From positions 1-47,458 of the forward strand of contig VBOZ01000007.1 of assembly GCA_005893305.1 (NCBI GenBank): a DNA stretch of 47,458 bases, given 5' to 3'. Within the stretch, counting starts at the first letter, position 1. Each line of letters opens with the position of its first letter. Positions 41,020-44,221 of the stretch are shown in pieces. The position numbers and the translations under genes are program-made. Under the pieces are notes generated by a model. It was not told the DNA's origin, made no database searches, and saw only the letters and a program-made list of their open reading frames with translations. The DNA comes from Candidatus Eisenbacteria bacterium (GTDB lineage: Bacteria; Eisenbacteria; RBG-16-71-46; SZUA-252).

Positions 41020-42102
41020 TCACACGCTAAAGCGGATGTTCACGATGTCACCGTCCCGAACTTTATAGTCTCTCCCCTCGGTGCGCAAGAGGCCCCGCTC
41101 CCGGGCCTTGGCCATTGTGCCGGCATCGATCAGATCGTCGTAGCCGATCACCTCGGCCCGGATGAAGCCGCGCTCCAGGTCGCTGTGGATCGCGCCCGCC
41201 GCCTCGGGCGCCAGGGCGCCGTCGCGCACGGTCCACGCGCGGACCTCGTCCGGTCCGACGGTGAAAAACGAGAGCAAGCCCAGGGCGGTGTAGGAAAGCC
41301 GGATCATCCGCGTGAGTCCGGGCTCCTGGATGCCGAGGTCCGCCATGAACTCGGCCGCGTCCGCCTCCGGGAGCGCGACCAACTCCGCTTCGGTCTTCGC
41401 CGAGAGGGCGATCACGGGGGGCGTCGGCTCCGGGAGGCGGCGGCGGATCGGATCGCAGACCACGTCCTCCCCCAGCTTGAGCGCCGCGTCATCCACGTTC
41501 ACGACGACGATCCAAGGTCGCGCCGAGAGAAGCTGAAAGCCGCGCAGCGATCGCTCCTGGGGCGCGTTGAGCCCGGCCGAGCGGGCCGGCCGCTCCGATT
41601 CGAGGGCCGCCATGACCTTCTTCAGCGCCTCGTATTCGTTCGCGTCCTCGGGCTTCTTCCCCACCCTGAGCGACTTCTCGATCCGGTCGACGCGTCGCTC
41701 GACGACCGCGAGGTCCTCGAGTAGAAGCTCCCCCGCGAGCCATGCCGCATCGCGCGCCGCGTCCACCGTCTGCATGAAGTGCGGCACGGCAGGATCCTCG
41801 AACGCACGGATCACGAGCACGAACGCGTCGACGTCTCGGAGCGCTGTGAGGGCCGAGAGGGCGCCGCGCTCGCCCCGAGCGGTCTCGAGGGCCGGAGCGT
41901 CCACGTAGTCGACCTTGGCGGGGGTGAACTTCTTCGGCTGGTGCATCTCGCGGAGCTTTTCGAGACGGGCGTCGGGCACCCGCACCGAGCCTAGATGGAC
42001 CTTCTCCCCGCGCGCCGAGCCCGACTCCGCCTGCCCGCGCGTGACCGCGGTGAAGAGCGTCGTCTTACCGCTCTGGGGCGGACCCAGGATGCCGAGTTTC
42101 AT
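41020..42102 (-). CDS. ychF: YchF-like GTPase/ATPase with C-terminal TGS (DUF933) domain
   Basis: 360 residues, the normal YchF length. The P-loop is LGILGPPQSGKTTLFTAVTRG (YchF usually has GLPNVGKST here, so this is a divergent branch). The later motif VDYVDAPAL follows the G3 position, VVNVDD fits the base-recognition region, and YTALGLLSFFTVGPDEVRAW followed by AAGAIHSDLERGFIRAEVI forms the TGS domain typical of the family. YchF binds ATP and ribosomes and affects oxidative-stress responses. The ATG is 27 bases after the selenoprotein stop, on the same strand, so the two may share a transcript. Confidence 0.88.
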   Translation of the reverse strand: MKLGILGPPQSGKTTLFTAVTRGQAESGSARGEKVHLGSVRVPDARLEKLREMHQPKKFTPAKVDYVDAPALETARGERGALSALTALRDVDAFVLVIRAFEDPAVPHFMQTVDAARDAAWLAGELLLEDLAVVERRVDRIEKSLRVGKKPEDANEYEALKKVMAALESERPARSAGLNAPQERSLRGFQLLSARPWIVVVNVDDAALKLGEDVVCDPIRRRLPEPTPPVIALSAKTEAELVALPEADAAEFMADLGIQEPGLTRMIRLSYTALGLLSFFTVGPDEVRAWTVRDGALAPEAAGAIHSDLERGFIRAEVIGYDDLIDAGTMAKARERGLLRTEGRDYKVRDGDIVNIRFSV

Positions 42103-42129: not shown

Positions 42130-43005
42130 TCAGGCGCCGGATTTGCGGGCGATTTGGACGGCCAAGGTGTCTGCCTGCTCCTTGGCATAGGGAGCGTCTT
42201 CGTCTTCGGGGAACTTGCCTGCGTAGTCCAGAAATACCTTTCGTGCCTTCGCGAGATCGCCAGCCTTCTTCCAGTTGATCGCTACCTGGAGGAACGCGGA
42301 TCTCATGTTGTCGCTGTCCGGGTATCGGTCGAGTACCTTTTGCGCGTATTTCCGCGCGGTCGCATAGTCCCCGTCCTTCCGACTCATCCGCGAAAGACTC
42401 ATGAGCGCGTCGTCCACCAGGCCGCTCTTGTTCGCCCGGTCGAGCGCCACGAGGCGTAGATACCTAGCCTTGGCGTCTGCGTAAAGGCCGTGCTCAAAGT
42501 AGCGGTCGGCCAGCTTCGCCAGGAACGCAGGGTCAGAGCCCTGCGTCGACTCGGCCCCCGCCATCGAGGCGAGCGTGTTCCTTCCGTCGAGGTAGTCCTC
42601 CACCAGCCCCGTGAATTCAGGAGCGCGGTAGTACCCCACGACGCGATCGATCTCGACGCCGTCCGATCTCAGGACGAGGACCGTCGGGTAGCTCCGCACG
42701 CGGTAATGGGCGGACGTAGCCGTGTCCACCTCCGCGTTCAGCTTCACGCAGGTGAACCGCTTGGAGAACTCGATGAACTTGGGATCGGTGTAGGTAGACT
42801 CTTCCAGAGCCTTACACCAAGTTCACCAGTCGGTGTAGAAGTCGAGGAGGATCGGCCGTCCGCTCTTCCCCGCGTCGGCAAGCGCGGCGTCCATCGCGGT
42901 ATTCCACGTGATCGTCGCCGGCGCTTCCCTTTTCGCGGTCGCGCAGCCGCCGGCGATCAGCGTGAACGCCATCGCGCCAGCCATCCATCCACAGGCTGTC
43001 TTCAT
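42130..43005 (-). CDS. Predicted selenoprotein: thioredoxin-fold lipoprotein with UxxC motif and TPR-like C-terminus
   Basis: 291 residues including one in-frame TGA (42825-42823) at position 61. The N-terminus ends in a lipobox-like cysteine (FTLIAGGC21). The thioredoxin domain reads RPILLDFYTDW-U61-TWC64-KALE, where family members have W-C-x-x-C-K, and has the cis-proline in RVRSYP107TVLVL. Downstream the same frame stays open to the stop at 42130, with TPR-like helices (LADRYFEHGLYADAKARYL, ARKYAQKVLDRYPDSDNM, WKKAGDLAKARKVFLDYA). A SECIS-type hairpin follows the TGA. Redox or thiol-exchange activity in the envelope is inferred. Alternatives: a Cys-to-TGA sequence error or a pseudogene. 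The start at 43005 has a weak ribosome site. Confidence 0.8.
42787..42818 (-). promoter_or_regulatory. Bacterial SECIS-like hairpin behind the in-frame TGA
   Basis: On the minus strand GGTGTA (42818-42813) pairs with TACACC (42792-42787), and GGCTCT (42811-42806) pairs with AGAGTC (42802-42797, one G-U). The loop is GGA (42805-42803). The loop begins 18 bases after the TGA and its first base is G. Known bacterial SECIS elements have a short G-containing apical loop about 16-37 bases from the UGA, so this fits. Confidence 0.75.
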
Positions 43006-43160: not shown

Positions 43161-43466
43161 ATGAGTGCCTGCTATTTCTGCCACACGTCGCTCGATCCCA
43201 AGCTGCGGATCGTCCGCGACAGCGTCTGCCCCAGCTGCCAGCGCGACCTCCACGCCTGTGTCCAGTGCCGCCACTTCGATCGGAACGCCCACAACCAGTG
43301 TCGCGAGCCCAATGCGGAGTGGGTCACCGACCGCGACCGCCGGAACTTCTGCGACTACTTTTCTTTGAATTCGGCGGTCTCTACAGGAATCAAAACAAAC
43401 CGCGCCCAAGACGCCCGAACGAAGCTCGATCAGCTCTTCAAGCCCAAGGAGCCTAATCCCGAATGA
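43161..43466 (+). CDS. Cysteine-rich small protein, probable zinc binder
   Basis: 101 residues with GGGGGGACACGCGGT before the ATG. Eight cysteines lie in the first 64 residues: CYFC (4, 7), CPSC (23, 26), CVQC (33, 36), then C47 and C64. Paired CxxC sites suggest two zinc-ribbon-like sites, or a redox protein. No family recognised. It overlaps the next gene in ATGA and diverges from the predicted selenoprotein across 155 bases, so all three genes could share thiol/metal chemistry. A hairpin covers its ribosome site. Confidence 0.72.
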   Translation: MSACYFCHTSLDPKLRIVRDSVCPSCQRDLHACVQCRHFDRNAHNQCREPNAEWVTDRDRRNFCDYFSLNSAVSTGIKTNRAQDARTKLDQLFKPKEPNPE

Positions 43467-44221
43467 AACTCGACATCCTCGTGTTCGGCCCGCATCCGGA
43501 TGACGCCGAGATCGGAGCCGGCGGGCTCTTGCTCAAGATGAAGGATTTGGGTCATACGACCGGCATCATTGACATGACGCGCGGGGACATGGGTTGGGGC
43601 ACGCCCGAGGAGCGCGAGGGTTGGGGCACGCCCGAGGAGCGCGATAAGGAGAGCGAGGAGGCCGCGAAGATTCTCCGACTCGACGTTCGCGAGAACATGG
43701 ATCTCGGGGACAACCGGATCGAGGACACCTTCGAGAACCGCTGCAAGGTGGCCGCGATCCTGCGAAAGTACCGCCCCGAGATGATCTTCGCCCCCTACTA
43801 CGACCTCCCGATCGGGCGCGGCCTCGGGCACAACGATCACTTCAAGACCGGGATTCTGGTATCGCAGGCGTTCAACCTCGCCCACTTGCGGAAGGCTCCG
43901 ATCGAGGGGGAGCCGTACCAGGTGAAGGCGATCTTCTACTACTTCATCCCGCCCGGGATGCGGCCCACGTTTATGGTCGATGTCTCGCCCTATTTCAAAG
44001 ACTGGATGCGGGCGTTGTCGGTTCACCGCACGCAGTTTTCGAATCCTGAGAAACCCAAGCCGAAGGGAGAGAGCCCCGGCGTGACGGAGCTGGTGGATGC
44101 CGCGTCGCGTGCGACCGGCTTCATGGTCGGGGCCGGCCACGCGCAGTCCTTTCTTTCAATCGCCGCACTCAAGGTCAAGGACCCTATGGAGCTGGTTCGA
44201 GGAGTAGAACCGCGGCCGTAG
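43463..44221 (+). CDS. Bacillithiol biosynthesis deacetylase, BshB1-like (LmbE/PIG-L family)
   Basis: 252 residues starting in ATGA overlap with the Cys-rich gene. Zinc-dependent deacetylases of this family remove the acetyl group from GlcNAc-malate in bacillithiol synthesis. The zinc site PHPDDAEIGAGG, the block IDMTRGDMGWGTPEERE and the C-terminal GHNDHF and GMRPTFMVDVSPYF match BshB1. A 27-bp unit (43591-43617) is repeated exactly at 43618-43644, so the segment GWGTPEERE occurs twice in tandem; family members have one copy at this site. The protein is therefore nine residues longer in a loop close to the active site. bshA and bshC are not in the window. Confidence 0.86.
   Translation: MKLDILVFGPHPDDAEIGAGGLLLKMKDLGHTTGIIDMTRGDMGWGTPEEREGWGTPEERDKESEEAAKILRLDVRENMDLGDNRIEDTFENRCKVAAILRKYRPEMIFAPYYDLPIGRGLGHNDHFKTGILVSQAFNLAHLRKAPIEGEPYQVKAIFYYFIPPGMRPTFMVDVSPYFKDWMRALSVHRTQFSNPEKPKPKGESPGVTELVDAASRATGFMVGAGHAQSFLSIAALKVKDPMELVRGVEPRP
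43591..43644 (+). repeat. Exact 27-bp tandem duplication in the deacetylase gene
   Basis: Two identical 27-base units (43591-43617 and 43618-43644) keep the reading frame and double the peptide GWGTPEERE. Confidence 0.95.

Follow-up and report, generated by a model that had tools for sequence, protein, structure and literature searches.

We identified, in a 47,458-nucleotide stretch of a Candidatus Eisenbacteria contig (hereafter the window), a gene with an in-frame UGA at the active site of a thioredoxin domain. On the evidence of the sequence, this codon is almost certainly decoded as selenocysteine (Sec), a reading already proposed in a preliminary description of the window and supported here by the Sec machinery of the genome, by the homologues and by a hairpin downstream of the codon. 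The gene that seemed to be broken by a stop is thus very probably intact. We consider it highly likely that it represents a new family of exported selenoproteins, in which a thioredoxin domain with a Sec61-x-x-Cys64 motif precedes a TPR domain, and which would serve as a thiol-disulfide oxidoreductase of the cell envelope, probably as a lipoprotein in the lineage of the window. A thioredoxin-TPR family is thereby added to the selenoproteins that is absent from the curated models and from the 2026 catalogue. With TGA at the active-site codon, such genes are liable to truncated calls in roughly one half of the Zixibacteria genomes examined.

Features of the selenoprotein locus in the window (positions on the forward strand)
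Feature	Position	Strand	Remarks
Putative selenoprotein gene	42130..43005	-	291 residues, counting the UGA as Sec; frame ends with TGA 42132-42130
Sec61 (predicted), in-frame TGA at first UxxC position	42823..42825	-	79 loci with TGA, 51 with Cys
Cys64, resolving Cys of UxxC	42814..42816	-	Invariant in 62-member alignment A2
Probable export signal and lipobox Cys21 (42945-42943)	42943..43005	-	Cys invariant in nine family members; predicted from sequence
Thioredoxin_7 / DsbD-gamma-like domain	42589..42909	-	Residues 33-139; cis-Pro107 at 42687-42685
TPR domain	42136..42573	-	Residues 145-290, eight helices
SECIS-like hairpin	42785..42820	-	Two-part, GGA loop 42805-42803, 17 nt after TGA
Nine identical consecutive codons, +3 to +11 after TGA	42790..42816	-	Nine genomes, Fisher p = 6e-7
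ychF-like ATPase gene	41020..42102	-	27 nt after selenoprotein stop

The sole internal stop of the frame is the TGA, which stands in the context FYTDW-U-TWCKALEE at the place of the first cysteine of a CxxC motif. The coordinates of the frame and of its single interruption were exact in the preliminary description, and the cis-proline site and TPR-like region noted there proved to be real as judged by Pfam, by the alignment and by AlphaFold. A six-frame search of the phylum of the window recovered the gene in all nine genomes of the taxonomic family of the window, the eight relatives being 58-67% identical to the window protein, and in one genome of another family of the phylum (G017, 36% identity). 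Each of these relatives contains exactly one TGA, at the same codon. In the Zixibacteria, the phylum of records L042 and L043, relatives were found in 118 of the 132 genomes.

Whether homologues carry Cys or TGA at residue 61 had been posed as a check on the Sec reading, and both were found: the codon in this column is TGA in 79 of the 133 loci (nine in the family of the window, one in G017 and 69 in the Zixibacteria), a Cys codon in 51 and a Ser codon in three. The set includes three repeat fetches, all of them Cys, so that the tree contains 48 different Cys loci from the Zixibacteria. The partner cysteine at +3 is retained in the Sec forms. So many occurrences of TGA at one codon, 79 loci in all, are not due to chance. 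It could be argued that a single assembly, such as the one from which the window is taken, may contain a sequencing or assembly error, or a pseudogene in decay; given that this TGA is shared by 69 loci of the Zixibacteria and by ten genomes of the phylum of the window, and that the matches in TGA-bearing relatives contain no other stop, we regard this explanation as exceedingly improbable.

Two more distant thioredoxin-TPR-like frames, L199 in another genome of the phylum of the window (G003) and L191 in a KSB1-titled phylum (G246), have TGA at the same active-site place, which suggests that the Sec form may extend to a third phylum and to another family of the phylum of the window. Close orthologues were not found in the KSB1-titled phylum, where the matches were weak (5 of 82), and the viral contigs searched contained no relatives of the gene. 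Seven Zixibacteria loci (L120, L133, L101, L148, L159, L167 and L171) have serine in the motif (SxxS, SxxC) or are of the monothiol CxxS type. In one genome (G069), the SxxS copy L120 occurs beside a Sec copy (L107), and one of the two may have lost its redox function.

All four components of the Sec machinery that the preliminary description had named as a check, selA, selB, selC and selD, are present in the genome of the window (2.75 Mb, 95.8% complete). The scores are 567.6 bits for selA, 356.8 bits for selB and 382.2 bits for selD, and the tRNA-Sec, with anticodon UCA, scores 68.6 bits against a cut-off of 47; selD adjoins selC on contig 8. The objection that the organism lacks the means to insert Sec therefore does not hold. 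Within the phylum, selA was found in 41 of the 47 genomes, among them all 26 with a completeness of 90% or more, and a tRNA-Sec above the cut-off in 39 of the 47; 120 of the 132 Zixibacteria genomes have selA.

A two-part hairpin with a GGA loop follows the TGA, as had been described, with small corrections: the stem starts with base three downstream of the TGA rather than four bases after it, and 17 rather than 18 nucleotides separate the TGA from the loop. The lower stem of 8 bp (42820-42813 with 42792-42785) is followed by a 3-nt bulge and an upper stem of 7 bp (42812-42806 with 42802-42796). The minimum free energy (MFE) is -16.7 kcal/mol (z = -3.4), and none of 200 dinucleotide shuffles was as good. 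The published limits for bacterial SECIS elements are a loop of 3-9 nt with G in the first two positions, a stem of 4-16 bp, a distance of 16-37 nt from the UGA and an MFE of at most -7.5 (PMC13188914). The hairpin in the window, with its 3-nt loop, 7-bp upper stem, 17-nt spacing and folding energy, falls within all of them, a result that favors the Sec reading in the bSECIS check that had been proposed.

Such rules are of limited value on their own. A scripted, strict version finds no passing hairpin at 27 of the 79 TGA loci and passes 12 of the 51 non-TGA loci, and the simple rule passes 17 of the 33 loci in the first Cys control set. Because the simple rule discriminates poorly in GC-rich DNA, we place the weight on synonymous constraint and on covariation. 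The window itself yielded 86 candidates for TGA-interrupted frames accompanied by a SECIS-like hairpin; among 25 of these, the gene at 43005-42130 was the only one with a recognisable redox motif. We also considered thioredoxin matches with TAG codons in the phylum of the window as candidates for UAG-encoded Sec or pyrrolysine, and these proved to be ordinary C-terminal stops.

In the nine genomes of the family of the window, all nine invariant residues with degenerate codons at +3 to +11 keep a single codon, as compared to 12 of the 77 other invariant residues (Fisher p = 6e-7). The fixed codons include GCT, GAA, TCT and TGT, which end in T or A despite the GC3-rich composition of the gene. 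The Zixibacteria have a different hairpin, with the loop GGTC located 23 nt after the TGA, and here 30 of the 31 Sec rows with the xDTVV motif read GACACGGTCGTG, a stretch that forms the hairpin and for which codon usage predicts 1% per row; these rows are related, so that the identity does not represent 31 independent events. The third bases of codons +6 and +11 covary perfectly in this hairpin (G-C in 24 rows, C-G in 10), even to the point of swapping Phe for Leu. Across 32 rows (30 of them distinct), 210 of 210 cells are paired, against no more than 48% in slid controls, and two of the pairs have changed on both sides.

These patterns bear on the question of whether the UGA might be a true stop, or be read at a low level as another residue such as Trp, with the downstream part of the frame either dead or translated from an internal start. 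TGA is formally a stop codon, and a frame of 205 residues could start from an internal GTG (42747), but a start at this site would cut through the thioredoxin fold. Furthermore, the same TGA occurs in 79 loci and is exchanged only with Cys, apart from the three Ser loci, and selection is purifying on both sides of it: for the pairs where dN/dS could be computed, the values 3' of the TGA are 0.05-0.2, similar to those upstream, and most pairs show little or no synonymous change in the hairpin. Together with the synonymous constraint on the hairpin and the full Sec machinery, this makes a true stop very unlikely, and decoding as Sec is by far the better reading.

The alternation between Sec and Cys was traced on a maximum-likelihood gene tree in which the trait residue had been masked; the search was quick and single branches should not be over-read. 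The Sec label changes 21 times across the Zixibacteria tree by parsimony, and at least 12-13 switches are required when only the well-supported branches are trusted. Some sister pairs differ in the trait, among them L113 (TGA) with L114 (TGT) and L172 (TGA) with L165 (TGT). Since Sec and Cys have alternated repeatedly among close relatives, the family offers a direct comparative test of the gain and loss of Sec. If these switches are real, repeated exchange at one site is a natural experiment on why bacteria retain selenocysteine, and comparisons within the family, whose SECIS hairpins differ and some of whose Cys forms keep the hairpin sequence, can test what Sec buys an envelope oxidoreductase.

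One of the Cys forms, L165 (2480-3343), has zero synonymous change in the hairpin relative to the Sec form L172 (2492-3355), with other synonymous sites near saturation. This stretch looks like a fossil SECIS element left by a recent switch from Sec to Cys.

The two-domain fold was predicted with high confidence by AlphaFold2, run with 62 family members (mean pLDDT 93.2, pTM 0.84). The thioredoxin domain extends to about residue 139 and matches Thioredoxin_7 in Pfam (PF13899; 49.7 bits over residues 33-113, against a cut-off of 27), and the TPR part, also recognised by Pfam, consists of eight helices. Sec is placed directly ahead of the helix that follows strand 52-57 in the predicted model. 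No variation is seen at C61, C64, P107, R121, T144 and A254 across the 62 aligned members, with U written as C. A Foldseek search with the thioredoxin domain placed DsbD gamma among the best matches, with a TM-score of about 0.7-0.8 when normalised by target length, whereas the full chain retrieved YbbN/CnoX (3qou) first, with a weak superposition (TM 0.30).

The lipid anchor that had been proposed is likely for the window protein, as indicated by an N-terminal hydrophobic segment and by a lipobox cysteine, in an AGGC-type box, in nine of nine members of the family of the window. Elsewhere the lipobox pattern is patchy: it occurs in 45 of the 120 Zixibacteria loci and was not found in G017.

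Selenoproteins with a thioredoxin fold and a UxxC motif are already known, and the novelty lies therefore in the family and its architecture rather than in a new principle. No thioredoxin-TPR protein is among the 119 families and subfamilies of prokaryotic selenoproteins that the 2026 review catalogues (PMC13188914), and a term search of a 2022 selenoprotein table showed none either (PMC9312934). The window protein scores far below every cut-off in NCBIfam release 20, and the other 61 family members match the same generic models, the cut-offs having been compared for the first member. For Zixibacteria together with selenoproteins, the open-access literature searched yielded a single paper, which deals with another subject. 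The suggestion that this may be a new selenoprotein family is supported in that no curated family examined matches it.

The closest catalogued analogues are the Sec-containing thioredoxin (PF00085) and the thiol:disulfide interchange protein (PF13098) (PMC13188914, Table 1), which share the thioredoxin fold, Sec in place of the first Cys of CxxC and a SECIS element downstream of the UGA; by their catalogue listing these have a thioredoxin-type domain only, whereas the window protein adds a TPR domain and a predicted export signal. The Trx7/PDZ selenoprotein NF041199 (PF13899) likewise combines a Thioredoxin_7 domain with Sec, but has CxxU and PDZ where the window protein has UxxC and TPR, and the latter scores 19.8 bits where 300 are required. 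The best-scoring relatives of the thioredoxin domain are the rhodanese/DsbD fusion-like selenoprotein TsoB (NF045694; 60.2 bits over the thioredoxin domain only, cut-off 805) and DsbD gamma (DsbD 58 bits, cut-off 330); unlike these, the window protein has neither a membrane domain nor a rhodanese domain. The chaperedoxin CnoX/YbbN shares the order of a thioredoxin domain and then a TPR domain, and it heads the full-length fold matches. CnoX is a cytoplasmic partner of GroEL with SxxC or CxxC (PMC8129009), whereas the window protein has a putative export signal and Sec, and the domains are differently arranged (rmsd 22 A and 13% identity to 3qou). We rejected membership of CnoX/YbbN both on the cytoplasmic location, as judged from the sequence, and on the whole-length superposition.

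The fold and the signal together make a function as an envelope oxidoreductase likely. We propose that SelB and tRNA-Sec would decode the UGA, with the hairpin that follows it as the directing signal. The selenolate of Sec61 may then attack a client disulfide or another oxidised thiol in the cell envelope, after which Cys64 would resolve the mixed selenyl-sulfide, while the groove of the TPR domain could hold the client or a partner.

The gene neighbourhoods differ between the two phyla and provide no single functional hint. The next gene downstream is ychF-like in each of the nine testable loci of the phylum of the window, including G017, where it is 37% identical. The copy in the window matches TIGR00092 with 270 bits, below the cut-off of 279.2, and the NCBI name for its family is redox-regulated ATPase YchF. 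YchF is a cytoplasmic protein, so that this link is treated only as a lead. In the Zixibacteria, a glycine-cleavage P-protein gene (gcvPB where examined) is located directly downstream in 103 of the 120 loci (L067-L187), gcvPA and gcvH are found upstream in many, an ABC transporter gene occurs downstream and a small ORF of the zinc-ribbon or DUF2007 type is often found upstream.

These associations could mean that Sec is inserted but that the role of the protein is tied to its operon partner, glycine cleavage in the Zixibacteria and YchF in the phylum of the window. However, the glycine-cleavage enzymes, like YchF, are cytoplasmic, whereas the N-terminus of the selenoprotein resembles an export signal; the neighbourhoods change between the phyla while the protein remains constant, and the gcv context is common to the Sec and Cys forms. 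We consider a partner-bound role unlikely, and favor an envelope oxidoreductase. A tentative extension, which we think is possible but doubtful, is that this uncatalogued family, found, with either Sec or Cys, in roughly nine of ten Zixibacteria genomes, couples thiol chemistry in the envelope to the glycine-cleavage cluster.

Divergently oriented to the selenoprotein gene in the window is a small Cys-rich, zinc-ribbon-like ORF (43161-43466, forward strand; MSACYFCHTSLDPK...), for which an NCBIfam search gave no match. It is followed on the same strand by a gene for a PIG-L deacetylase (43463-44221).
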